Source of the DNA: Caldifarciminota bacterium | GTDB taxonomy: Bacteria; Hydrothermota; Tepidihabitantia; SM23-42 | DNA length: 32,632 nt | Direction of reading: 5' to 3' | Assembly (NCBI GenBank): GCA_020343595.1 | Contig: CP070802.1 | Span: 1,012,082 to 1,044,713, forward strand | In this document: positions 2,160 to 31,106 of the stretch, piece by piece | Position numbering within the stretch: the first letter of the stretch is position 1 | How the letters are laid out: every line of letters starts with the position of its first letter | Made by a program: the position numbers and the translations under genes | The notes under the pieces: generated by a model | Told to the model about the DNA's origin: nothing | Database searches by the model: none | Seen by the model: the letters and a program-made list of their open reading frames with translations, nothing else

Positions 2160-4223
2160 TCATCTCAACAATATAATTTTCTCGTATTGCTCATCAGCAC
2201 CGGTGTTGGTTTTCGCGAAGTATACACCGGCCGGTAGTTTTTGATTATTGTCATCATCACCGCTCCAAATGACTCCATATGTGCCGCCTGCATTGACGAC
2301 TTGTGTCAGATTGCGGACAAGACGGCCGGTAACGTCATAGATCCCGATACTTATCACGGCAGCCCCTTCACCGCTCAACACTTGCGTTATCTGGAATGTG
2401 ATTCTTGTCAGCTGTTGGAACGGATTCGGTAATGCATAGAAACTCGTAACGAACGGTGCTATCTCGAGCACCTGCTCTTTGACTATTCCGGTAGACTGAC
2501 CAACGTGAATTGCATCGAGGTCAAAACCGGCGTGTTGTCCTCCGGTATAGTTGCCATCATCAATGATCCTCACGTATCGCGCCTCAGACATGCCGGCCGT
2601 TGCGAGATCAAAGCTTGCCGTTCCCGTATCAGCACCGCAGGATAACCATGACCCGCTCCAATCATTACTTGCATAAACTTGATAGCCTTCAGCGGTTCCG
2701 TCGTCTCCTTCAAATATGGTGAAGTCGTCGCCGGGGCCGTCGGTGATAGGCGTATTCGGTCCCATATCGAGAACGATATACCCTGATTGTCCGAGCGAAT
2801 ACCATACGCTATCCACAGGTCCGAGCGCATGCCGCGGTTGTGTTTTGTTCGCCTGCTCTTCATGATCCGCATAACGGTTCACGACAACTTTGAATGCATG
2901 ATGGTAAGTTGAGTCGGGTATCAGAAGTACTTCGTCTATTGATACGGTGCTCTGCGACATCACGTTTACGTCACTCACGGATTTGGGCGCATATCCATTG
3001 ACCGAAATTCTCAGTTCATATGTTCCTGGTTCGATCATCTTGTGGAAATCACCATACAACGGGTCGGTATAGACATCAATCCTTTGTGGATCAGTGAATT
3101 CTATTCTTGCATACAACAGAGAATCGGTCAGTGAATCCCTGACTATTCCTGTGATCCCCCAGGCGGCGAACTCACAGACATTCATCAGTGCTTCACGGTT
3201 GGCAAAACATATCTGGTCGATCGCGCTCGATGATGAAGGCTCCATCGTTTCAATGGTCCAGGCAAGGACACCATTCGTTCCGATTGTGTAATCCTGCATC
3301 GAGCCAGGCGTTTGATACCAGTCGTATCCGTTTATCGCCACGAGGTTTGCCATGGTAGCATACGTCTCGGAAAGGCTAATGATATGCTGGCTATCTGCAG
3401 GGTCAGCCGGATGGTAGTCCCAGGGGTAATTGACGTATTGTGCCGCCGAATGATAGTTGTACTCAAGGGAGATGTTATTATCTTCAAGATGCTGCATAAC
3501 GACCTGGCTTTCTATCTGTGACGATGGGGCAGGACTACCACCCCAGCCGTCCCAGAAGTAACCGTAATCCCGGTTCAAGTCGACATAGTTCATATTGCGA
3601 CGTGTGTTTGCCACCTTGCCGTCGGGATTGAGTGTGGGCAGGATCCAGATCTCGTTGCTGTCCACGAGCGCCTGCACTTCAGGGAGTATAGTATAGTTCG
3701 TGAGCAGATGCCTCAAGAAATATAGGGTTATCTCGGTCCCGATGTGCTCGTCGCCGTGAATATTACCAGCGAGTCTGATCTCTGGTTCATTCTCCTCGAC
3801 CTGGACATTGTCAGTTACCCGCATTGCCCAGAGGGCGCGGCCCTGAATGCTGAAACCTATCGTATCGAGGCGGCAGATATTCGAATGTTCGGCAGCGAAG
3901 GAATCGAGTACGGCGTACAACTGTTCGTATGTACGATAAAATCCTCGCTGGAATAGGTCATCCTTATATGCTTGGTAATCCTCGATCAGAATGGCCACAT
4001 CGTAACCGGCACTTCTGAGTGTTGCTATCTCGCTATCGTTCACCAGAACCCTGGTATAGTCATCACCCGCATCAATAATGGTCAGGCGGTATTGATTCAG
4101 CTCATAGATCATGTCGTGATGCTGCAGCCTTATTTCGGCGAGTCTGATCACGTCACCTGCGTCTGCATATCCGAAGCCAAGCAGAGCTATTGATAGTACT
4201 ACTGACCAGCGTATTATGGACAT
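2160..4223 (-). CDS. Exported M14 zinc carboxypeptidase with regulatory-like and C-terminal sorting-type domains
   Basis: A secreted metallocarboxypeptidase of family M14, predicted 687 residues. ATG 4223 is chosen over the in-frame start at 4244 because GGAGAG sits 6 bases before it and a signal peptide follows at once (MSIIRWSVVLSIALLGFGYA). Zinc ligands are in GNIHGDEHIGTE (His about 156, Glu about 159) and NYHSAAQY (His about 258). NTRRNMNYVDLNRDYG supplies the substrate-binding Arg region, and TIETMEP the catalytic Glu (about 325). A carboxypeptidase-regulatory-like beta domain follows (about 358-435), then a probable carbohydrate-binding-like domain (about 440-580), then a final FlgD/type-A-sorting-like domain with IYDVTGRLVRNL, LPAGVYF and KIILLR. 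It lies 59 bases after the other M14 gene and may share its transcript. Confidence 0.9.
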   Translation of the reverse strand: MSIIRWSVVLSIALLGFGYADAGDVIRLAEIRLQHHDMIYELNQYRLTIIDAGDDYTRVLVNDSEIATLRSAGYDVAILIEDYQAYKDDLFQRGFYRTYEQLYAVLDSFAAEHSNICRLDTIGFSIQGRALWAMRVTDNVQVEENEPEIRLAGNIHGDEHIGTEITLYFLRHLLTNYTILPEVQALVDSNEIWILPTLNPDGKVANTRRNMNYVDLNRDYGYFWDGWGGSPAPSSQIESQVVMQHLEDNNISLEYNYHSAAQYVNYPWDYHPADPADSQHIISLSETYATMANLVAINGYDWYQTPGSMQDYTIGTNGVLAWTIETMEPSSSSAIDQICFANREALMNVCEFAAWGITGIVRDSLTDSLLYARIEFTDPQRIDVYTDPLYGDFHKMIEPGTYELRISVNGYAPKSVSDVNVMSQSTVSIDEVLLIPDSTYHHAFKVVVNRYADHEEQANKTQPRHALGPVDSVWYSLGQSGYIVLDMGPNTPITDGPGDDFTIFEGDDGTAEGYQVYASNDWSGSWLSCGADTGTASFDLATAGMSEARYVRIIDDGNYTGGQHAGFDLDAIHVGQSTGIVKEQVLEIAPFVTSFYALPNPFQQLTRITFQITQVLSGEGAAVISIGIYDVTGRLVRNLTQVVNAGGTYGVIWSGDDDNNQKLPAGVYFAKTNTGADEQYEKIILLR

Positions 4224-4282
4224 TGATGTCTCTCCATATCTCAATTCTCTAATTCAACCTATCTCAGTTGCGTCGATATCCT

Positions 4283-6520
4283 TCAATGCAGTAGGATCGC
4301 TTTGCTCACGGTCCGTGAATTTGTCCAATCAAGTTTGACAAAGTAGATGCCACTCGGTGCTGGTCGGCCGGAGTCATCCTGGCCGTTCCATGTGAGCGAT
4401 GTTGGATTCCCGGTTGCAGAAAGGCGTTCGGAAAAATCTCTGACCAAGCGTCCTGCGGCATCATAGATACACAGACGTGCGGCTTCCCTATCCGCGACAC
4501 CGAGCGTATAACTGATATGTAGCCGATCGGTGAAAATGCTGTTTCCCAAAGACAGAGATGGCGTAATCTGTTCCGGCTCTACGATGTCGTTTTGTACGAT
4601 ACCGGTCATAACTTCGGCGTAGCCGAGACAGGAGAAATCACCCCAGCCCCACGTGGAGTTATATCCGCGTACCAGGTAGTAGTATTCGCCACTCTGATGC
4701 CCGACGAAGTCATAAAGGGTATCGGCGATATCCGACGCGACCGTGTCTATTTCAGTAAAAAGGCAGGCCGGATAGATGTCATCAACATAGAAACCCGTGT
4801 TGAGTACTGCGCCGTCGGTCATGGCACGGAATCTTAAGTATACTGAACGTCCTGCCCAGTCATCAAGCGAGTACGCCTTGCGGATCCACCCGCCTGAATT
4901 TCCATTGAACCTTGTGGTATCGAGATTGAACCACTCCTTAGTATTCTCTGAGACTTCCACGACGGCAACGTCATAATTTGCTTCGAGATCGTACCAGCAC
5001 CAGAAGGTTACCGAGTCATCACTGCTCACGAAATATGGGTGGATGCTCTGCACTGCGCTGTTCATGCTGTTCACACTGCCTGAGAAATAACTGTGTGTGC
5101 CAGAATGAGCCTGGGTTGTTGATAACGTGAATCCCTGCAATATCCACCGGTCAGTGCCTGACTCGAGATCATCTTCGACTATTGAAGGCGTCGACAGCTC
5201 CAATAGTTCCCAGTAGAGCGGATTGTTGTGCTCAACATTCTTGGCATGCCAGGTAACAGAAAAATCTGCGGGTGTTGGGCCGATCGGATTGATCGTAGGC
5301 GCTGGTACTACTCCTTCGGTTGCAATCATCAATGAGTCGGCAAATCCGGCCAAATACTTGGCCGCTTTGAAGACCTGGCGTGAGATGAAGTCAAGTTGGC
5401 TTTGACTCTGGTAGAAGGTCGTACCGATCTCTGACCCGTAGAATAGCGCTGAGAGTCCGGCCACGTAGTGATTGTACCCATATACCCAGTCGCGTGTGTT
5501 GCCGGCGGTCGGATAAGGGTTGTAGTAAGAGGGGCCAGGTTCATAAGTGCCACCATACAACCCCTGCATCATACTCGCCATGTGATATCCCTTTTCATCG
5601 TATAGTGTAGCGTCTGGCGTTCCTTGAGGTTTGTATCCCCAAGGATACATTACCTGTTCACCATAACTGTGCAACGAGAAGCCAGTGATGATCTTACGTT
5701 CACGTATGAAAGTAGTGTAAGCCCATATTTCATCGCCACTGTAGGCAAACGGACCGCAGAAAGTTGCGTACGGAGGATTATGGGTAAGCTGTCCTTCGTC
5801 TGCCGCGCCCCAGTAGCCGTCTATCTCGCCGTTACAGGCGCCGCCGTAATTCCGGTTGCAGTCGGTACCGATCGAACCACCGAAAGGTTCACGGTTCTTA
5901 CGCCATGATAGTTGTGAAGGGTAATCATAGACATAACCGTCGACATTAATTAGAGGAAAGCAGTGGATCTGCGTTCCGTCTATGATCTCTGTTATCTCCG
6001 GAACCAAGGTATATGAACGGATCATCGAGTCGGCAAAGAAGAGTACAGCCTGAGGAGTCGCCCATTCCCGTGAATGGTGGCAGCCGTCAAGCGTGAAACC
6101 CGGCTCGTCTTCTTCGAGTTGCGGGTTGTCCGATATTTTTACGCCGTATATCCAGCGGCCTTCGTATGTAGTAAAAGGTAATGAGTCCAGGGCGCAAATC
6201 GACGGATGGTCAAATGCCATTTGCCGTAGCGAATCATTGATCTCATCATAAGAAAGATAAGAACCACGTACCTTGTCCTTTTCGTATTCGAGGCTGTGCA
6301 CGGTAACCTCATATGGCAGTCCAGAAGCAACAACCTTGTCAAGCAGCGCATGGTCAGCGACAAGATCATACCATTCGCCGTATCTACCGGCAGCGATATC
6401 TAATGATTTTTTATCTATCTTTTGCAAGTCATTCCATGAATTCACGTAGACCCGGACGATCATATCCTGGGCCATACCGAGTGTCAACATCAAAACAGAA
6501 ATGGCTAGAAGCCGTTTCAT
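4283..6520 (-). CDS. Exported M14 carboxypeptidase (carboxypeptidase T/A type) with C-terminal sorting-type domain
   Basis: A secreted zinc carboxypeptidase of 745 residues. ATG 6520 is preferred to the TTG one codon earlier because of the GGGGGT ribosome-binding stretch 5-6 bases upstream. The signal peptide is MKRLLAISVLMLTLGMAQ. The peptidase core has CHHSREWATP (zinc His about 149, Glu about 152), the RKNREPFGG and DCNRNYGG binding segments, FSLHSYGEQVMYPWGY (zinc His about 284) and YGSEIGTTFY (catalytic Glu about 364). This is closer to classic CPA/CPT than the neighbouring M14 protein. Residues about 450-620 are a beta-sandwich of the immune-inhibitor-A/MAM-like kind (LESGTDRW, HSGTHSYFSG). 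The last 80 residues form the FlgD-like sorting domain (CIYDAAGRLVRDF, PSGIYFVKL, KAILLH). A promoter lies about 110 bases upstream. Confidence 0.92.
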   Translation of the reverse strand: MKRLLAISVLMLTLGMAQDMIVRVYVNSWNDLQKIDKKSLDIAAGRYGEWYDLVADHALLDKVVASGLPYEVTVHSLEYEKDKVRGSYLSYDEINDSLRQMAFDHPSICALDSLPFTTYEGRWIYGVKISDNPQLEEDEPGFTLDGCHHSREWATPQAVLFFADSMIRSYTLVPEITEIIDGTQIHCFPLINVDGYVYDYPSQLSWRKNREPFGGSIGTDCNRNYGGACNGEIDGYWGAADEGQLTHNPPYATFCGPFAYSGDEIWAYTTFIRERKIITGFSLHSYGEQVMYPWGYKPQGTPDATLYDEKGYHMASMMQGLYGGTYEPGPSYYNPYPTAGNTRDWVYGYNHYVAGLSALFYGSEIGTTFYQSQSQLDFISRQVFKAAKYLAGFADSLMIATEGVVPAPTINPIGPTPADFSVTWHAKNVEHNNPLYWELLELSTPSIVEDDLESGTDRWILQGFTLSTTQAHSGTHSYFSGSVNSMNSAVQSIHPYFVSSDDSVTFWCWYDLEANYDVAVVEVSENTKEWFNLDTTRFNGNSGGWIRKAYSLDDWAGRSVYLRFRAMTDGAVLNTGFYVDDIYPACLFTEIDTVASDIADTLYDFVGHQSGEYYYLVRGYNSTWGWGDFSCLGYAEVMTGIVQNDIVEPEQITPSLSLGNSIFTDRLHISYTLGVADREAARLCIYDAAGRLVRDFSERLSATGNPTSLTWNGQDDSGRPAPSGIYFVKLDWTNSRTVSKAILLH

Positions 6521-6627
6521 CAATAACCCCCTGTTTGCTTGCTTTGATTGCTAACGGTGTCAAGTGATGGGTCTGAATATCGGGAGATGGTCCTGGGTAT
6601 TCAATTCAACTTGCATTCCGTTCTTAT

Positions 6628-6655
6628 ATTATAGTGAGCTATTATGCCTTGTCAA
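6628..6655 (-). promoter_or_regulatory. Promoter for the M14 peptidase gene
   Basis: On the minus strand, TTGACA (6655-6650), a 16-base spacer and TATAAT (6633-6628): a near-consensus sigma70-type promoter. The transcript would start near 6621, giving a leader of about 100 nt before ATG 6520, which carries a ribosome-binding site. This contrasts with the plus-strand promoter beside it. Confidence 0.75.
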
Positions 6656-6658
6656 CTA

Positions 6659-6686
6659 TTGATTTGGCTGATATTCTGCCTATAAT
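6659..6686 (+). promoter_or_regulatory. Promoter for the Nudix-Mre11-Rad50 operon (leaderless type)
   Basis: TTGATT (6659-6664), a 16-base spacer and TATAAT (6681-6686). Only 7 bases separate the -10 box from ATG 6694, so transcription should begin on or next to the start codon. The -35 box is 3 bases from the -35 box of the divergent M14 promoter. Confidence 0.75.
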
Positions 6687-6693
6687 TGTGTCA

Positions 6694-7089
6694 ATGGAGC
6701 ATCGCAATCCTGTCCCGACAGTAGATATTATCATCGAAATTGCGGGTAAAATTGTCCTTATCAAACGCAGGAATCCGCCGCACGGCTGGGCTCTACCGGG
6801 TGGTTTCATTGATTATGGCGAATCGGCCGAGGCGGCAGCCCGGCGTGAAGCCAGGGAAGAGACCGGGTTAGAAATTACTGGCTTGAAGCAGTTCCACTGC
6901 TACTCAGACCCGGCGCGTGATCCCAGACAGCATACGATATCCATTGTCTTTTCGGCCAGGGCATCTGGGCAGCCAAGACCGGGTGATGACGCGGCCGATC
7001 TTGCTCTGTTCGATCAGATTGCGCTCCCTGAAGAGATCGCTTTTGACCACCGCCGGATTCTGGAAGACTACTTCAGAAGAAAGTACTGA
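6694..7089 (+). CDS. Nudix hydrolase
   Basis: A 131-residue Nudix-fold hydrolase that would cleave a nucleoside diphosphate linked to another group (for example ADP-ribose or an oxidised nucleotide). The Nudix box is intact: [18 protein letters not shown] followed by REETGL, with the metal-binding REEXG core at about residues 53-60. The preceding [10 protein letters not shown] is typical of the ADP-ribose/NADH-type group, but substrate cannot be assigned. The longer GTG-initiated frame from 6634 is rejected because its first 20 codons are the promoter. ATG 6694 lies 7 bases after the -10 box with no Shine-Dalgarno, so it is probably leaderless. It is the first gene of a tight operon; the Mre11-like gene starts 4 bases after its stop. 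Confidence 0.9.
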
Positions 7090-7093
7090 TTTC

Positions 7094-8134
7094 ATGAAAA
7101 TACTACATACGGCTGACTTGCATCTAAGAAAGGGCCACGATGCAGGAATCGAAGTGCTCTCATGGCTGGTTGGAAAGGCAGGCGAGCTCGAGGTTGACGC
7201 CTGCATTATTGCTGGGGATCTCTTCGACTCTGATACTGATGCTACACTCATGAGGCAGAAGTTGAGGAATCTATTCGACTCTGCGACATGCAAATTCATT
7301 GTGTTGCCAGGTAACCACGATGAAAATTCGTATGGTCCGGATTTTGATTACGGCAGGAACGTTATTCAATTTACCGAGAAGCCGTTTCGTCTTGTTGAAA
7401 TCGGCGATATTAGGATTTGCGGCGTGCCCTATCAGCACAACAAATTCAGCGAATTTGCAAAAGGTTTTCCAGCCGAGATCGACATCTTGGTGGCTCACGG
7501 GACTATCTACGATCCATCGTATATTTTCAGTCTGCTCGACGATCCGGAGACGGAATACATGCCAATTTTCCCACCCGACCTTCAGGACACTGCACGATAT
7601 GTGGCAATGGGGCACTTGCACGCGAATCATGTCGATTTGACGTACGGGAAGACACGTGTAGTATATCCAGGTTCGCCAATTGCACTCGATAAAAAATGTG
7701 ATAGCGAGCGTAGCTATGCTCTCGTTGAGATTGACCGTGCCCGTGTCGAGGTGAACAGGTGCGGGATAGAAAGAGCACAGTACTGGCTTACCAGGGAGTT
7801 CTTCGTCTATCCGGATGCAGAGGAGCGTATTCTGACTGACATCGAGGAGTTTCTTGAAGGTATAGATAATTTACGCATCATGCCGAATGTCGTTGTGCGA
7901 GGCTATATTGGAGACAAGGAGACAAAGTACTTGGAATGTCTCGAATCCGTGCGTGAGAAATTCGAGAAGAAATTCGCCCGGTTGGATTTCGTTCCAAATA
8001 TCCAATCATGGGAAAGAGTGATTTCTAATCCAATGGTCAAACGGTTTATTGCCAAGACCAATGATCTTGAAGACAGTATACGCTTGAAGGTCTTTGAAAT
8101 TTGCTTGCCGATATTTGACCGGGTCTTGAAATGA
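7094..8134 (+). CDS. Mre11/SbcD/YhaO-like DNA repair metallophosphoesterase
   Basis: A predicted Mn-dependent exonuclease subunit of an Mre11-Rad50-like complex, 346 residues. The calcineurin-like phosphoesterase motifs run in order: HTADLHL (residues 5-11), AGDLFD, PGNHDE, VAHGT and GHLHAN, followed by the capping region and a C-terminal segment of about 130 residues likely to bind the ATPase partner. ATG 7094 is used because the protein then opens with MKILHTADLHL as in the family. The upstream in-frame extension overlaps the Nudix gene and has no family match. There is no strong ribosome-binding site, so translation is probably coupled to the Nudix gene. The stop overlaps the start of the Rad50-like gene by 4 bases (ATGA). 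The pairing matches both sbcD-sbcC and Bacillus yhaO-yhaN; the partner's structure favours the latter. Confidence 0.9.
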   Translation: MKILHTADLHLRKGHDAGIEVLSWLVGKAGELEVDACIIAGDLFDSDTDATLMRQKLRNLFDSATCKFIVLPGNHDENSYGPDFDYGRNVIQFTEKPFRLVEIGDIRICGVPYQHNKFSEFAKGFPAEIDILVAHGTIYDPSYIFSLLDDPETEYMPIFPPDLQDTARYVAMGHLHANHVDLTYGKTRVVYPGSPIALDKKCDSERSYALVEIDRARVEVNRCGIERAQYWLTREFFVYPDAEERILTDIEEFLEGIDNLRIMPNVVVRGYIGDKETKYLECLESVREKFEKKFARLDFVPNIQSWERVISNPMVKRFIAKTNDLEDSIRLKVFEICLPIFDRVLK

Positions 8135-10215
8135 GAATCAACAGCATAAGCGTAAGAAAATACGGACCGATTGACGACTTCACACTTGAGCCTGGGTTTT
8201 TTGATGTCATTTTTGGTTTGAACGAGGCCGGCAAGACAGCGCTAGTGGAAGTCCTGGCGCAAATTCTCTTCAAGAGAACCGCGGCAAATCTTAGATATGA
8301 GAAACCCGAAAAAGCGTCTGTTGAGCTGGAGGACAATGGGCGCACATATAGTCTTCCGCAGAAGAAGATGAAGATAGAACTGCCGGTAGGTGATGTTGCG
8401 AACCTGATGTATGTGCAGGCATCGGAGTCAGCTGTGTTTGGTTCGCGTGGTGAGGCACGTTTCTGGGATGGGATCAAAACGATGCTTGGCAAAGTGGGTG
8501 CCGGCATTACTTTCACCAAGCTTGATGAATACATATTCGATGCCGTCGATCTTCAGCCGGTAAAAGCGGAATGGAAGCGTTCCAAGCAGGCTGAAATTGA
8601 AAGAGATCAACGGCGCAAAGAGTTGCTCGGTCTTTTCATAAATAGAATCGGTGAGATCGGGAAGAAAGAATCCGAGTTGGCAAAATTGACCGCACACCTT
8701 AGTGCCGTCAAAAGGCGAATTGAAGACATCGAGCAGTACAGGAAATATTCTAATTATGCAGAACTGACCAAACTGCATAACGCTTACAGAGAAGCGAAAT
8801 CAGCGGCTCAGGATTATGAACGTTACAAGCACGAATATCTGAAGGATTGGCAGAAGCTCGATCTTGAGCGACATGCAAGTCTCGGCGAGGGAAGAAAAGT
8901 AAAGGAGATCGGAGACGAAGTAAAGCAGCTCGAAAGTGATATTCAGAATCTCCAGAATGTCGAAGAATATATCATCAGTGAAGGTCTTGGGAACGTTTCA
9001 GGAGGACGCGTAGACCGCGGGAAACAGCCGACTCTTGTGATACTCTCGCTCATCATGCTCGTCGCCATGGGACTTGCAGCACTCGGTGTGCTCAAGATCC
9101 TACCTCTGGTACCTACACTCATCCTGCTGGCAGGTACGGCTGGTGTTTTTGTATACACGGTTCTTCGGCGACGTTCATTGAGCAAGGCTATGGCAGAGGG
9201 TCGCATGTGGTTGGAAAAAGCACGGCGAGTATTTCCCGAGATGAGTAGCATCGATGAGCTACCTAACAGGATGGACAGAAATCAGGAAGAGCTGATAACG
9301 AAGAGGACACTGGTCGAAGAGAAGAAGAGAATAATCGACCTGCTGGGTAACGCACGTCCGGTCGATTTGATAGAAAAGGAGATAGCCCTTCTTTGCACCA
9401 AAACGGGGCTTGCGGAGTTGAGTGATCTGGAGGTCAAATTGTCCGAGAAGAGGAAGGTTGAGGACGAATTGAACCGGCTCGGAACGAAGCTCGCCGGGCT
9501 CCTCGAGGAAACCAATACGAAGAAATGGGAGAGGATGATCAGCGAGCGGAAAGTCATGCAGCCTTCAGGAGAACCCGATGTTTCAATGTATGGGGATCTC
9601 ATAGAAGAACAGAAAAAGACACAACGTCAGATCGACGGACTTACACGCGATATCAAACTCTTCCGTGAGGTGGAACAGGCGCGGGTAGATATAAGTGATG
9701 ATCATGATGCATTTGTTGAATATGAACGATTGGAGAAGAAGCTGAACGATAACGAGCTGGAGAAAAAGGCGGCACTTGCAGCGAGAGAAATTCTCAGGGG
9801 TATGAGCGGAGAGTTGGATGAGTTCATAGAGGATGTCCTGCAGGGCAAGGACAGTCTGAGTGAATATTTCAGAGCAGTTACCGAACGCTATGTCCGGGTG
9901 TTTGTCGAGGATGAGAATTTCAAAGTCGAAGATAGCTCAGGCACGACATACACCCTTGAAAGTCTCAGTAGTGGCACTCAGGATCAATTACTCATGTGTT
10001 TTCGCATGGCGGCACTGACTAAAGTATATGCAAAGGGTTCCTTAATGATCCTCGATGATGCTTTCATCTTTGCCGACTGGCAGCGGCGAGAAAGAATTAC
10101 TCGGCTGATTCAGAGGTTTGTGCAGAAGGGGAATCAAGTAATCTACTTGACCTCTGACGACCACACCCGTGACCTGCTTGCCGAGTACGGTGCTAGGGTG
10201 ACGGTATTGGAATAG
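8131..10215 (+). CDS. Rad50/SbcC/YhaN-like ATPase with two membrane segments inside the coiled coil
   Basis: An SMC-like ABC ATPase of 694 residues, partner of the Mre11-like protein encoded just before it (4-base ATGA overlap). Walker A is FGLNEAGKTAL (about 28-38). The ABC signature LSSGTQDQL (about 612-620) and Walker B SLMILDDAF (about 637-645) lie near the C-terminus, with YLTSDDH as the switch segment. Long charged coiled-coil stretches flank the middle. The apex holds no CXXC zinc hook. Instead two hydrophobic helices occur, about 300-320 (LVILSLIMLVAMGLAALGVL) and about 324-345 (LPLVPTLILLAGTAGVFVYT), followed by basic LRRRS. This predicts a membrane-tethered head-coil-membrane hairpin like Bacillus YhaN rather than soluble SbcC. 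The protein is shorter than typical SbcC or YhaN. Confidence 0.88.
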   Translation: MRINSISVRKYGPIDDFTLEPGFFDVIFGLNEAGKTALVEVLAQILFKRTAANLRYEKPEKASVELEDNGRTYSLPQKKMKIELPVGDVANLMYVQASESAVFGSRGEARFWDGIKTMLGKVGAGITFTKLDEYIFDAVDLQPVKAEWKRSKQAEIERDQRRKELLGLFINRIGEIGKKESELAKLTAHLSAVKRRIEDIEQYRKYSNYAELTKLHNAYREAKSAAQDYERYKHEYLKDWQKLDLERHASLGEGRKVKEIGDEVKQLESDIQNLQNVEEYIISEGLGNVSGGRVDRGKQPTLVILSLIMLVAMGLAALGVLKILPLVPTLILLAGTAGVFVYTVLRRRSLSKAMAEGRMWLEKARRVFPEMSSIDELPNRMDRNQEELITKRTLVEEKKRIIDLLGNARPVDLIEKEIALLCTKTGLAELSDLEVKLSEKRKVEDELNRLGTKLAGLLEETNTKKWERMISERKVMQPSGEPDVSMYGDLIEEQKKTQRQIDGLTRDIKLFREVEQARVDISDDHDAFVEYERLEKKLNDNELEKKAALAAREILRGMSGELDEFIEDVLQGKDSLSEYFRAVTERYVRVFVEDENFKVEDSSGTTYTLESLSSGTQDQLLMCFRMAALTKVYAKGSLMILDDAFIFADWQRRERITRLIQRFVQKGNQVIYLTSDDHTRDLLAEYGARVTVLE

Positions 10216-10232
10216 ACATACAACATTCCTGG

Positions 10233-11369
10233 ATGACATTACCATTAAGCATTTGCGAAGAGATACTCGCCTCGGCCGGTTTTGAGGGATTGAGCGATGC
10301 CACAGAGTCGTCTCACAAAAAGAGGCTACGTGTGATCAGAGACCAGATGAGGGAGTTATCCTCTGACTTCGCGGAGGGTATATCTTCCGAGTCCAGGTAT
10401 TCGATGGCATATTTTCTTTACAACTTCCCACTCAACTTCATGAAAACATTGTACGTCTTTGGAGAAATCTCTATCCGCCGTCCAGATTTCCTCACGCCCA
10501 GGCAACGGTACAGGATTCTTGATATTGGGTGCGGTGAAGGTGCGGGCATGTACGGAGCATATTATGCTCTGAAGAGTCTCGATGGTTCGGGGAATACCCG
10601 ACTCAATGGGATCGATGGCTCGAGGAAAATGCTTGAACGTGCCCGGGATATGGCAGCGCGTCTACGAAGGCGCGGCGAGGATTTAACAGCAGGGTTCGCG
10701 AATCGGGATCTGACAGATATCCGTAATGCATTGCCACGGAAGAGGTATGATATTATCATCTGCAGTAACTCGCTTGCCGAAATAATTCGGGAAGAGACGC
10801 TCCCGAACAAGTATATCGGCATTCTGTTAGGGCATCTGTGCGAAAACGGCATCCTCGTTATCATAGAGCCTGCTCTTAAGAAGTATGCGCGCCGTCTGAT
10901 GCAGCTGCGTGATGACCTGGTCAAGCACAAGGCCGCACAGGTGATCCTGCCCTGCTTGCATAGAGAGAAGTGTTCTTTACTTAAGATCGACAGTCGAGAT
11001 GAGTGGTGTCATGAATCTGTAGCATGGAAGCCGCCTGCTTTTCTGCGGATTCTTAACAAGGGACTCAACCGCGAGATCGATACTCTCAAGTTCACGTATC
11101 TCGTGATAGCTAGAACGAAATCGCAACATGTGTTGCCGGAAGGTTACCGGGTTATCAGCGGTTTGCTCAAGGAAAAAGGGAGGATGCGGATCTTCCTGTG
11201 CACAGAACGCGGTAGGGTGGAGCTGGTCCGGTTGAACCGTTCAAAGAGTGGAAAGAACCTTTTGTTTGGCAGAATACACAAGGGTGACCTGATTAAGTTA
11301 CATGATATTGTCGTGCGAAACCCGGATTACTGGGAGGTAAATTTCCAAACGGTTGTTGAAATCCTGTAA
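10233..11369 (+). CDS. Rsm22-like small-ribosomal-subunit methyltransferase-fold protein
   Basis: A 378-residue protein with the plan of the Rsm22/METTL17 family, which associates with the small ribosomal subunit during assembly. The SAM-binding motif I is ILDIGCGEGAGMYG (about 94-107), followed by GIDGSRKMLERA and DIIICSNSLAEI. The family's cysteine cluster follows: PCLHREKCSLL and DEWCHES (about 240-270), which in METTL17-type proteins binds an Fe-S cluster. The last 80 residues form a small basic beta domain. The gene begins 17 bases after the Rad50-like gene with no strong ribosome-binding site and is the last gene before a terminator, so it is likely co-transcribed with the repair genes. 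Catalytic activity is not proven for this family. Confidence 0.8.
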   Translation: MTLPLSICEEILASAGFEGLSDATESSHKKRLRVIRDQMRELSSDFAEGISSESRYSMAYFLYNFPLNFMKTLYVFGEISIRRPDFLTPRQRYRILDIGCGEGAGMYGAYYALKSLDGSGNTRLNGIDGSRKMLERARDMAARLRRRGEDLTAGFANRDLTDIRNALPRKRYDIIICSNSLAEIIREETLPNKYIGILLGHLCENGILVIIEPALKKYARRLMQLRDDLVKHKAAQVILPCLHREKCSLLKIDSRDEWCHESVAWKPPAFLRILNKGLNREIDTLKFTYLVIARTKSQHVLPEGYRVISGLLKEKGRMRIFLCTERGRVELVRLNRSKSGKNLLFGRIHKGDLIKLHDIVVRNPDYWEVNFQTVVEIL

Positions 11370-21244: not shown

Positions 21245-22951
21245 GTGAAGAACAAGGAACTGTCGAGGATATTCAATCGTATCGCCGATGCTCTTGAATT
21301 TAAGGGAGAAATGGTATTTCGCACCCTTGCCTACCGAAAGGCAGCCCGCATACTCGATGACCTCGTCGAAGATGTCGAGGTCCTGCACCGCGAGGGCAAA
21401 CTCGATGAATTGCCAGGCATCGGCGCCGGCATCGCAAAGAAAATAGTTGAGTATCTCGAAACCGGGAAAATGAAGAAGTATGTGGAGGTCACTAAAGGTA
21501 TTCCCGATTCCTTGCTCAATATGCTTGACATTCAAAATCTCGGACCCAAGACACTTGCCCTGGCAAACAAGATGCTCAAGGTGAAGACCATTGCAGATTT
21601 GAAGAAAGTGATCGCCAATGGTAAACTCGCCGAGCTGCCGCGGATGGGCGAGAAGAAGGCTGAAAATATAAGAAAGGGTATAGAGCTCTATGAAAAAGGG
21701 CACGAGCGGCTTTCGATCGCGGTGGCCGAGCGGGTCGCATCCGAGGTCATATCATACCTGAAAGAGAACACCAGCATAAAGGACATCTCTGCAGCTGGTT
21801 CGCTGCGGCGCTGGAAGGAGACGATCGGCGATGTCGATGTGCTCGTTACCGGCACGGGTGGCGCAAAGATCGTTCATGCGTTCATTGACTATCCCAGGGC
21901 TGAGCGCGTGCTGGCAGCCGGTGACACCAAGGGTTCGATCATGGTCGAAGGCGGCGTCCAGGTTGATCTCAGGATAGTCGAGCCCAAGTCGTACGGGGCA
22001 GCGCTTCAATATTTCACCGGTTCCAAGGCACATAATGTCCGGTGTCGCAACATCGCAAGAACAAAGGGAATGAAATTGAGTGAATACGGATTGTTCAAGG
22101 GTAGAAGAATGGTTGCAGGTAAGACCGAGGAAGAAGTCTACAAGAAACTCGGGCTCGGCTATATCCCGCCGGAGTTACGTGAGGATCGGGGAGAGATAGA
22201 AGCCGCACTGAAGAAAAAGTTGCCAAAGCTGATTGAATTGGCCGATATTAAAGGCGACCTCCAGATGCACTCAACTTATTCTGATTCATCGGCGACCATT
22301 GCTCAGCTCGCCGAGACCGCCGAGAAACTGGGATATGAATACATACTGGTAACCGATCATTCGCAGTCGGCGAAATATGCCCACGGCCTTGAGGTCGCGC
22401 GTCTGCGAAAGCAATGGAAGGAAATAACGAGGATCAACAAGAAGTCCGAGGTGCGCGTGTTGAAGGGTGCCGAGGTAGACATTCTAAAGGACGGTAGACT
22501 CGATTACCCTGATAAATTACTGAAGGAATTGGATCTCGTTGTGGCATCTATACATCAGGGTTTCAAGAAGAATGTGACGGAAAGAATGTGCGCGGCGATG
22601 GAGAACCCGTATGTCGATATTATCGGCCATCCGACCGGAAGGCTCATTTCATCACGCGAAGGTTATGTTATGGACGTACAGAAGGTTATGGAGAAAGCGG
22701 CTAAGACAGGTACCTGGCTTGAATTAAATGCTTTTTGGGATCGTCTCGATCTGAGTGACGTCAATCTCAGGGTGGTGAAGGATATGGGTGTCATGGTAGC
22801 GATCGGTACGGATGCACATGACACACAGGGATTGCTATGGATGAAGTTCGGGGTCGCGACTGCCCGTCGTGGTTGGCTTGAATCAAGCAATGTAGTCAAT
22901 ACATTTGCCTTGAAGAAATTGCTCGCTTCAAGAAAACTGCACCGGAAATAA
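21245..22951 (+). CDS. polX: DNA polymerase X family protein with C-terminal PHP domain
   Basis: Bacterial PolX, 568 residues, the expected length for the polymerase-PHP fusion. It acts in gap-filling repair; the PHP domain gives Mn-dependent 3'-5' exonuclease and AP-endonuclease activity in studied members. Helix-hairpin-helix motifs are LPGIGAGIAKK (about 56-66) and LPRMGEKKA. The palm has GSLRRWKETIGDVDVLV (Asp about 197 and 199) and VQVDLRIV (Asp about 241). The PHP domain begins near 335 with LQMHSTYSDSS, then VTDHSQS, KGAEVDIL, ASIHQGF, IIGHPTG and IGTDAHDT, an intact metal set. The start is GTG 21245, 6 bases after the -10 box, giving MKNKELSRIFNRIADALE. Convergent with the TPR gene (8-base gap). 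Confidence 0.95.
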   Translation: MKNKELSRIFNRIADALEFKGEMVFRTLAYRKAARILDDLVEDVEVLHREGKLDELPGIGAGIAKKIVEYLETGKMKKYVEVTKGIPDSLLNMLDIQNLGPKTLALANKMLKVKTIADLKKVIANGKLAELPRMGEKKAENIRKGIELYEKGHERLSIAVAERVASEVISYLKENTSIKDISAAGSLRRWKETIGDVDVLVTGTGGAKIVHAFIDYPRAERVLAAGDTKGSIMVEGGVQVDLRIVEPKSYGAALQYFTGSKAHNVRCRNIARTKGMKLSEYGLFKGRRMVAGKTEEEVYKKLGLGYIPPELREDRGEIEAALKKKLPKLIELADIKGDLQMHSTYSDSSATIAQLAETAEKLGYEYILVTDHSQSAKYAHGLEVARLRKQWKEITRINKKSEVRVLKGAEVDILKDGRLDYPDKLLKELDLVVASIHQGFKKNVTERMCAAMENPYVDIIGHPTGRLISSREGYVMDVQKVMEKAAKTGTWLELNAFWDRLDLSDVNLRVVKDMGVMVAIGTDAHDTQGLLWMKFGVATARRGWLESSNVVNTFALKKLLASRKLHRK

Positions 22952-30368: not shown

Positions 30369-31106
30369 ATGGCTAATATCATCAAGTGCCGGGGTTTTGT
30401 ACTCAATACAATACCTTTCAAGGAATCAAGCCTGATAGCATCTGTTTTGACGAACAAGTCCGGGAAGGTCAAACTTCTAGCAAAAGGCATCCGCCGGCCC
30501 AAGAGTAAGATGTGTGGTGCAATGGAGCCCTTCAGTTTTGACGAGATCATTTTCTACAAACGGGAATTCAAGGATATCTATACATTGAGCGATGCCGTAG
30601 TCATCGACAGTTTTCCGGAGATACGTGGTGATCCATTCAGAGTGAGCGGGGCAATGGTGCTCTGCGAGTTTTACGATAAGACTCTTCCAATGGAGGAGAG
30701 CAATACACAGGTCTTTTCCGAATTCTTTCGATTCCTTAGTAGTATGCGCAAGGCCGATTCTCATACTGTGCGTGCCCTGGTTATTTCCTATCTCATCAGG
30801 GCTTTCCCGTATTCTGGCGTGATGCCGCATCTGGATGATTGTGTGCAGTGCCACGGACCGGTTGGCGGCGGCAATGGTAAAATAGATTTCAGCATTTCTG
30901 CTGGCGGAACAGTATGCCGTAAACACCATGATGATTCAGTGCTGCTTCTGGATCGCCAGACCGTTGAGGCACTCAAGAGTATGTTACAGCGGAGGCATTT
31001 TCAACTGAGTAATAGCACGTTGGCCGAGATGGAGGGTTTTGTTGCCGATTATATTTATGTTCATATGAATAATATACGCTTGCATTCATTGAAGCATTTC
31101 AAATAA
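30369..31106 (+). CDS. recO: DNA repair protein RecO
   Basis: RecO, 245 residues, which helps RecR load RecA on gapped DNA covered by single-strand-binding protein. The N-terminal OB fold has CRGFVLNTIPFKESSLIAS and KVKLLAKGIRRPKSKM. The C-terminal helical part holds a zinc-binding region with DDCVQCHG and GGTVCRKHH (about 154-183), here Cys-Cys/Cys-His rather than four cysteines. The start is ATG 30369, giving MANIIKCRGFVL. A short ATG-GAC-AAT-TAA lies just before it, but its ATG is only one base after the -10 box. THEP1 follows after 67 bases and may be co-transcribed. Confidence 0.92.
   Translation: MANIIKCRGFVLNTIPFKESSLIASVLTNKSGKVKLLAKGIRRPKSKMCGAMEPFSFDEIIFYKREFKDIYTLSDAVVIDSFPEIRGDPFRVSGAMVLCEFYDKTLPMEESNTQVFSEFFRFLSSMRKADSHTVRALVISYLIRAFPYSGVMPHLDDCVQCHGPVGGGNGKIDFSISAGGTVCRKHHDDSVLLLDRQTVEALKSMLQRRHFQLSNSTLAEMEGFVADYIYVHMNNIRLHSLKHFK

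Follow-up and report, generated by a model that had tools for sequence, protein, structure and literature searches.

The genes at 7094–10215 of the window (the whole stretch of 32,632 nucleotides that was analysed) encode an Mre11–Rad50-like nuclease–ATPase pair, and the ATPase, which has no zinc hook, carries two hydrophobic helices at the apex of its coiled coil. Hydropathy, charge and the structural model strongly support the prediction that the ATPase is tethered to the membrane through this apical hairpin. We consider the pair to be, more likely than not, a membrane-tethered two-subunit complex of the YhaO–YhaN kind that carries out housekeeping DNA end processing in place of canonical SbcCD.

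The first-pass annotation, made from the letters of the window, had placed such a pair at these coordinates, which proved right. The Nudix hydrolase, nuclease, ATPase and Rsm22-like methyltransferase genes follow one another on the plus strand as an operon-like run (Table 1), in which the Nudix gene is the first of the WOR-3 operon and stops 4 bp short of the nuclease gene. The nuclease and ATPase genes overlap by 4 bp at ATGA, which suggests translational coupling. A longer reading frame of 405 aa that begins at 6917 was dismissed as a start-codon artefact, since the homologues align from the ATG at 7094. The upstream Nudix gene is a conserved neighbour of the pair in the WOR-3 family and order, and the downstream methyltransferase is conserved in most of the WOR-3 family. 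Outside WOR-3 the methyltransferase is not conserved beside the pair, and a search there for a conserved third gene found none. The Rsm22/METTL17-like methyltransferase contains a cysteine-rich stretch, PCLHREKCSLLKIDSRDEWCH, which we take to resemble the Fe–S motif of mitochondrial METTL17. Divergent from the operon, tandem M14 carboxypeptidases are encoded on the minus strand (2160–4244 and 4283–6523), both with FlgD-like Ig domains at the C-terminus. Two further DNA repair genes of the window encode a PolX-like polymerase with a PHP domain (21245–22951) and RecO (30369–31106). The gene for the DNA-uptake channel ComEC (PF03772, 203 bits) is located at G000:C1:1045043-1045825, about 330 bp past the right end of the window and about 23–35 kb from the pair.

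Table 1. Features of the nuclease–ATPase locus, in window coordinates
Feature	Position	Strand	Evidence
Nudix hydrolase	6634..7089	+	PF00293, 86 bits; GTG start as in ORF list
Mre11/SbcD-type metallophosphoesterase nuclease, 346 aa	7094..8134	+	PF00149, 49 bits
Nuclease catalytic domain, motifs I–V (approximate limits)	7094..7828	+	Motif positions, Pfam spans
Nuclease C-terminal helices, residues 313–321 and 327–345	8030..8131	+	Model secondary structure
Rad50/YhaN-like ATPase, 694 aa	8131..10215	+	PF13514 AAA_27; PDB Rad50 heads
Walker A GLNEAGKT, residues 29–36	8215..8238	+	Motif; G29, N31, E32, G34, K35 invariant in 27 homologues
Ascending coiled coil, residues 150–283	8578..8979	+	AlphaFold2 secondary structure
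Hydrophobic helix 1, residues 302–320	9034..9090	+	Hydropathy; model helix 302–320; conserved hydrophobicity
Hydrophobic helix 2, residues 326–345, then RRR	9106..9165	+	Hydropathy; model helix 326–365
Descending coiled coil, residues 373–570	9247..9840	+	AlphaFold2 secondary structure
ABC signature LSSG, residues 612–615	9964..9975	+	Motif, homologue alignment
Walker B LMILDD, residues 638–643	10042..10059	+	Motif, homologue alignment
Rsm22-like methyltransferase, last gene of WOR-3 operon	10233..11369	+	PF09243, 71.7 bits

The assignment to the Mre11–Rad50 type was confirmed for both subunits. The nuclease has the full set of Mre11 active-site (metal-binding) residues: D8, H10, D42, N74, H75, D76, H135, H174 and H176, which do not vary across an alignment of 34 rows, YhaO among them. 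Its AlphaFold2 model (pLDDT 92) found Mre11/SbcD as the best PDB folds, with a TM of about 0.6, and its C-terminal helices are, by analogy with the Mre11 architecture, a candidate Rad50-binding helix–loop–helix. The nuclease stayed below the curated cut-offs of the SbcD models, scoring 62.6 against TIGR00619 (cut-off 77.65) and 62.9 against PRK10966 (cut-off 450). The sequence and the predicted head of the ATPase match Rad50, and the protein scored 29.1 bits against PF13514 AAA_27 (cut-off 22), a family also matched by 22 of 27 homologues. Walker A, signature and Walker B, described earlier as intact, were all found to be so, with Asp (DD) after Walker B where the catalytic Glu is usual. The coiled coil up to the apex comprises ~134 residues (roughly 20 nm). 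Because C422 and C623 are the only cysteines, the protein holds no CxxC, which bears out the proposed absence of a zinc hook. The relative placement of the parts is unreliable in the ATPase monomer model (pLDDT 83.8, pTM 0.48).

The two hydrophobic helices, previously put at about residues 300–345, were found at residues 302–345, where about five residues join them; the model breaks at 321–325, and its second helix extends toward the descending coil. The best 44-residue window of the ATPase sits at this apex, with a mean hydropathy of 2.26 that was reached by none of 5000 shuffles, and the best 19-mer, at 2.74, was equalled by 7 of 5000. Across 27 aligned homologues, the hairpin columns showed a mean identity of 34–37% and about 4% charged residues, and the flanking segments were 39–45% charged. 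The low identity and scarcity of charge indicated that hydrophobicity, not sequence, is conserved at the apex. In addition, where two helices could be detected (105 sequences), the loop was usually 1–5 residues long, and the density of K+R was 0.19 ahead of the hairpin, 0.13 within the loop and 0.26 behind it. The shortness of the loop and the abundance of K/R in the flanks agree moderately with a topology in which both arms of the ATPase would be cytoplasmic.

To place the window ATPase among its relatives, a profile scan of named genomes, most of those in the comparison being MAGs, yielded 227 relatives, of which 80 were kept and examined and 79 cover the apex. The DNA patterns of the scan were taken from the C-terminal head, so that the hairpin was not directly selected for, though the ranking used the whole protein. 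Homologues of the two-gene plan occurred in more than 20 phyla, in bacteria and in two archaeal MAGs, and the closest relatives belong to candidate division WOR-3/Stahlbacteria (Caldifarciminota in the tree taxonomy). The 80 include members of Myxococcota/Deltaproteobacteria, Thermotogota (Fervidobacterium), Spirochaetota, Bacillota, Actinomycetota, Chloroflexota, Planctomycetota, Calditrichota, KSB1, Elusimicrobiota, Omnitrophota, Bacteroidota (including the isolate Seramator thermalis), Thermoplasmatota and Euryarchaeota. The archaeal hairpin pairs are those of a Thermoplasmatota MAG (L139) and a Euryarchaeota MAG (L141); L139 resembles a copy from Aerophobetes very closely, which suggests recent transfer or MAG contamination. 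Homologues without the helices had been named in advance as grounds for abandoning the membrane proposal; each of the 79 homologues that span the apex proved hydrophobic there, at mid-protein (mean of the best 44-mer 1.32–2.56), with two helices above the 1.6 threshold in 72 and one in the other 7. No zinc hook was found in these 79 proteins. CxxC motifs in L120 and L126 were rejected as hooks since they are located far upstream of the apex, and that in L133 since it lies inside the hydrophobic stretch. Moreover, with a single exception the examined relatives read DD[AP]F at Walker B, and the nuclease gene adjoins the ATPase gene in 72 of 80 loci; the eight loci without an adjacent nuclease call are six truncated contigs and two over-extended ORFs with nucleases present.

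The same 44-residue measure was applied to control proteins. It gave 0.59 for E. coli SbcC (CPLC at 506), 0.19 for a zinc-hook Rad50 of the same phylum (CPIC at 456), 0.43–0.50 for soluble hookless pairs of the same phylum, 0.57–0.92 for proteobacterial YhaN (~1150 aa) and 1.33–1.91 for firmicute YhaN, which has two helices in Listeria. These values indicated that the hydrophobic apex separates kinds of pair and is a property neither of the phylum nor of all YhaN proteins. WOR-3 genomes hold at least four kinds, namely hairpin, soluble hookless, zinc-hook and long YhaN-like, the last (L187, 1037 aa) with a hydrophobic apex. The soluble hookless YhaN-like ATPases of the phylum (L183, L184, L185, L186, L188 and L191) form a separate class with neither CxxC nor hydrophobic apex; they measure 836–1057 aa where full length, and several have an Mre11-type partner gene.

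In the mechanism that we propose, a transmembrane helical hairpin would replace the zinc hook in a complex of the YhaO–YhaN kind. The hairpin would be lodged in the cytoplasmic membrane, leaving the heads and both arms on the cytoplasmic side, and two ATPases would dimerise via their ATP-bound heads and the nuclease dimer, so that the membrane, perhaps with packing of hairpin against hairpin, could do the zinc hook's job. As in SbcCD, ATP binding would clamp the heads on a DNA end, a hairpin or a protein-blocked end and admit the clamped DNA to the Mn-dependent nuclease; with Asp following Walker B, turnover may be slower. Most likely, the complex would serve as a housekeeping substitute for canonical SbcCD that processes broken or hairpin DNA close to the membrane, the step from an Mre11–Rad50-like complex to one acting on DNA ends at the membrane being one that we infer.

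In the genome of the window, which belongs to candidate division WOR-3, no SbcD match above a curated cut-off was found, and none of 100 relatives exceeded the TIGR00619 cut-off; since only 8 of 14 SbcD controls exceeded it, this model misses true SbcD relatives, and the lack of a canonical SbcD counts as weak negative evidence. The sole match to an SbcC-type Walker B in the window genome was the window ATPase, below cut-off. RecN and AddAB-like PDDEXK proteins are encoded in the genome and the pair occurs in part of the phylum only (strong matches in some 45 of 147 genomes), indicating that the pair is not essential. Published work links YhaN/SbcE to the repair of double-strand breaks (PMC4205851, PMC6452273). 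The yhaONM operon is listed among the LexA/SOS-regulated genes and is induced by H2O2 in B. pumilus (PMC3896406), and cells could do without SbcEF when survival of replication-blocking nicks was screened (PMC12748557).

The first-pass annotation had also suggested action on incoming DNA or at the replication–membrane interface, which we regard as speculation. In its incoming-DNA form, the complex would be a sentinel or processor at the membrane that trims or degrades DNA ends arriving by transformation or phage ejection. A membrane location would suit such a role, the title of Krishnamurthy et al. (2010), as cited in PMC3896406, ties YhaN/SbcE to competence in B. subtilis, ComEC is encoded just past the right end of the window, and the ATPase has a weak LmuB-like similarity (50.7 bits). 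However, ComEC is widespread and stands in an unrelated neighbourhood. The pair is chromosomal, and its gene order is vertically conserved across the WOR-3 family, unlike that of defence islands. No ATPase relatives were found among 2.9 million viral contigs, where the nuclease query gave distant SbcD-type matches only; a phage or plasmid origin of the pair was rejected on the absence of viral ATPase relatives. Searches of phage and plasmid proteins returned short head-domain matches only, several of which led to YhaO–YhaN comparator loci. The neighbours of the pair are mostly metabolic or information-processing genes and rarely known defence genes, with few strong PADLOC matches among the 93 neighbours of non-WOR-3 copies. 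The conserved order, the absence of viral ATPase relatives and the few PADLOC matches favour a housekeeping DNA-end processor over defence, and we consider a role on incoming DNA unlikely.

It is also quite improbable that the hairpin lies outside the membrane and that two protomers bury their hairpins against one another, making a hydrophobic clasp that takes the zinc hook's place in soluble form. The hairpin does occupy the exact place of the hook, and its second helix alone is marginal for insertion (about +1.8 to +2 kcal/mol on the biological insertion scale). Nevertheless, a protein–protein clasp should conserve specific contacts, and some 44 continuous residues with so little charge, low conservation and short loops are typical of lipid-facing hairpins. 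Still harder to sustain is the reading, in keeping with the operon partners, that the substrate is RNA or nucleotides and not DNA ends. The Nudix–nuclease–ATPase–methyltransferase order is conserved in the WOR-3 family and an HD-domain gene comes next after firmicute YhaO–YhaN, but beyond the WOR-3 order the pair has neither a Nudix nor a methyltransferase partner, and both its fold and its ATPase coupling are of the kind seen in DNA-end processors. A Lamassu-type defence system with the ATPase as a relative of LmuB, a short-coil SMC-like ATPase of distant sequence similarity, is scarcely conceivable even though the PADLOC LmuB model PDLC03859 spans the whole protein at 50.7 bits and 19 of 27 homologues match it, because the neighbours (Nudix, an Mre11-type nuclease as partner, methyltransferase) include neither LmuA nor LmuC and Walker B reads DD, in contrast to the E-to-Q change described for LmuB (PMC10586767), which ruled this identity out.

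The membrane-tethered, end-processing complex would have a wider bearing, because the tether by which Mre11–Rad50 is customarily defined is the zinc hook. If a whole class uses a membrane hairpin, either the membrane can do the hook's job or these complexes work on membrane-sited DNA, such as replication or segregation sites or DNA under uptake. What began as a single odd gene now stands for a class of which at least 79 members have been checked. It is possible, and we put it forward tentatively, that Mre11–Rad50 complexes acting as integral membrane machines form a broad and apparently undescribed class in bacteria and archaea, with a hairpin for the hook, cutting ~20 nm from the membrane, and with firmicute SbcE as one branch. 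This would offer a testable account of the little-understood YhaN/SbcE. A literature search, which did not extend to the main SbcE paper (PMC2811018), found no paper joining YhaN or Rad50 with a transmembrane apex; an earlier notice of YhaN's hydrophobic apex in the literature is possible.

Compared with known systems, the window pair shares with SbcCD/Mre11–Rad50 the Mre11 active site and fold and the Rad50-type bipartite ABC head, but it differs in the missing CPxC zinc hook, the Asp for catalytic Glu, a much shorter coil, the hydrophobic hairpin and SbcD scores below curated cut-offs. Proteobacterial YhaN ('YhaN family protein') agrees in head family, DD Walker B, a DNA repair exonuclease partner and the absence of CxxC, and differs in its length and in lacking a hydrophobic apex. 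The resemblance to YhaO–YhaN noted at first pass held up best for the firmicute proteins (SbcEF), which share the two-gene nuclease–ATPase plan, the AAA_27-type head, the DD after Walker B, the absence of CxxC and, in Listeria, E. faecalis and L. curvatus, a hydrophobic apex midway along the protein; the plan of the window pair is thus not unique. As had been stated, the window ATPase is the shorter (694 aa vs. 903–907 aa in firmicutes), and so is the nuclease (346 aa vs. about 400 aa for YhaO). The HD-domain gene that follows YhaO–YhaN in annotated firmicutes, which encodes the exoribonuclease YhaM, is absent after the window pair.

The family ATPase profile found seven YhaN proteins at 63–108 bits and did not find E. 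coli SbcC, and the family nuclease profile scored YhaO and SbcD alike. In a quick, unrooted nuclease tree with long branches, the YhaO rows formed one clade (99% SH-aLRT) with the window nuclease outside it, in a separate hairpin clade of 40 rows (98%). The 66 hairpin rows require two changes on this tree, so a single origin of the hairpin is neither shown nor excluded; in the ATPase-head tree, which lost 22 rows to the motif filter and is no more than supportive, the hairpin rows fall on one side of a branch (89%). On the basis of the profile results and both trees, the window pair is a compact variant of the YhaO–YhaN (SbcEF) kind, distinct from strict YhaO–YhaN and from SbcCD.
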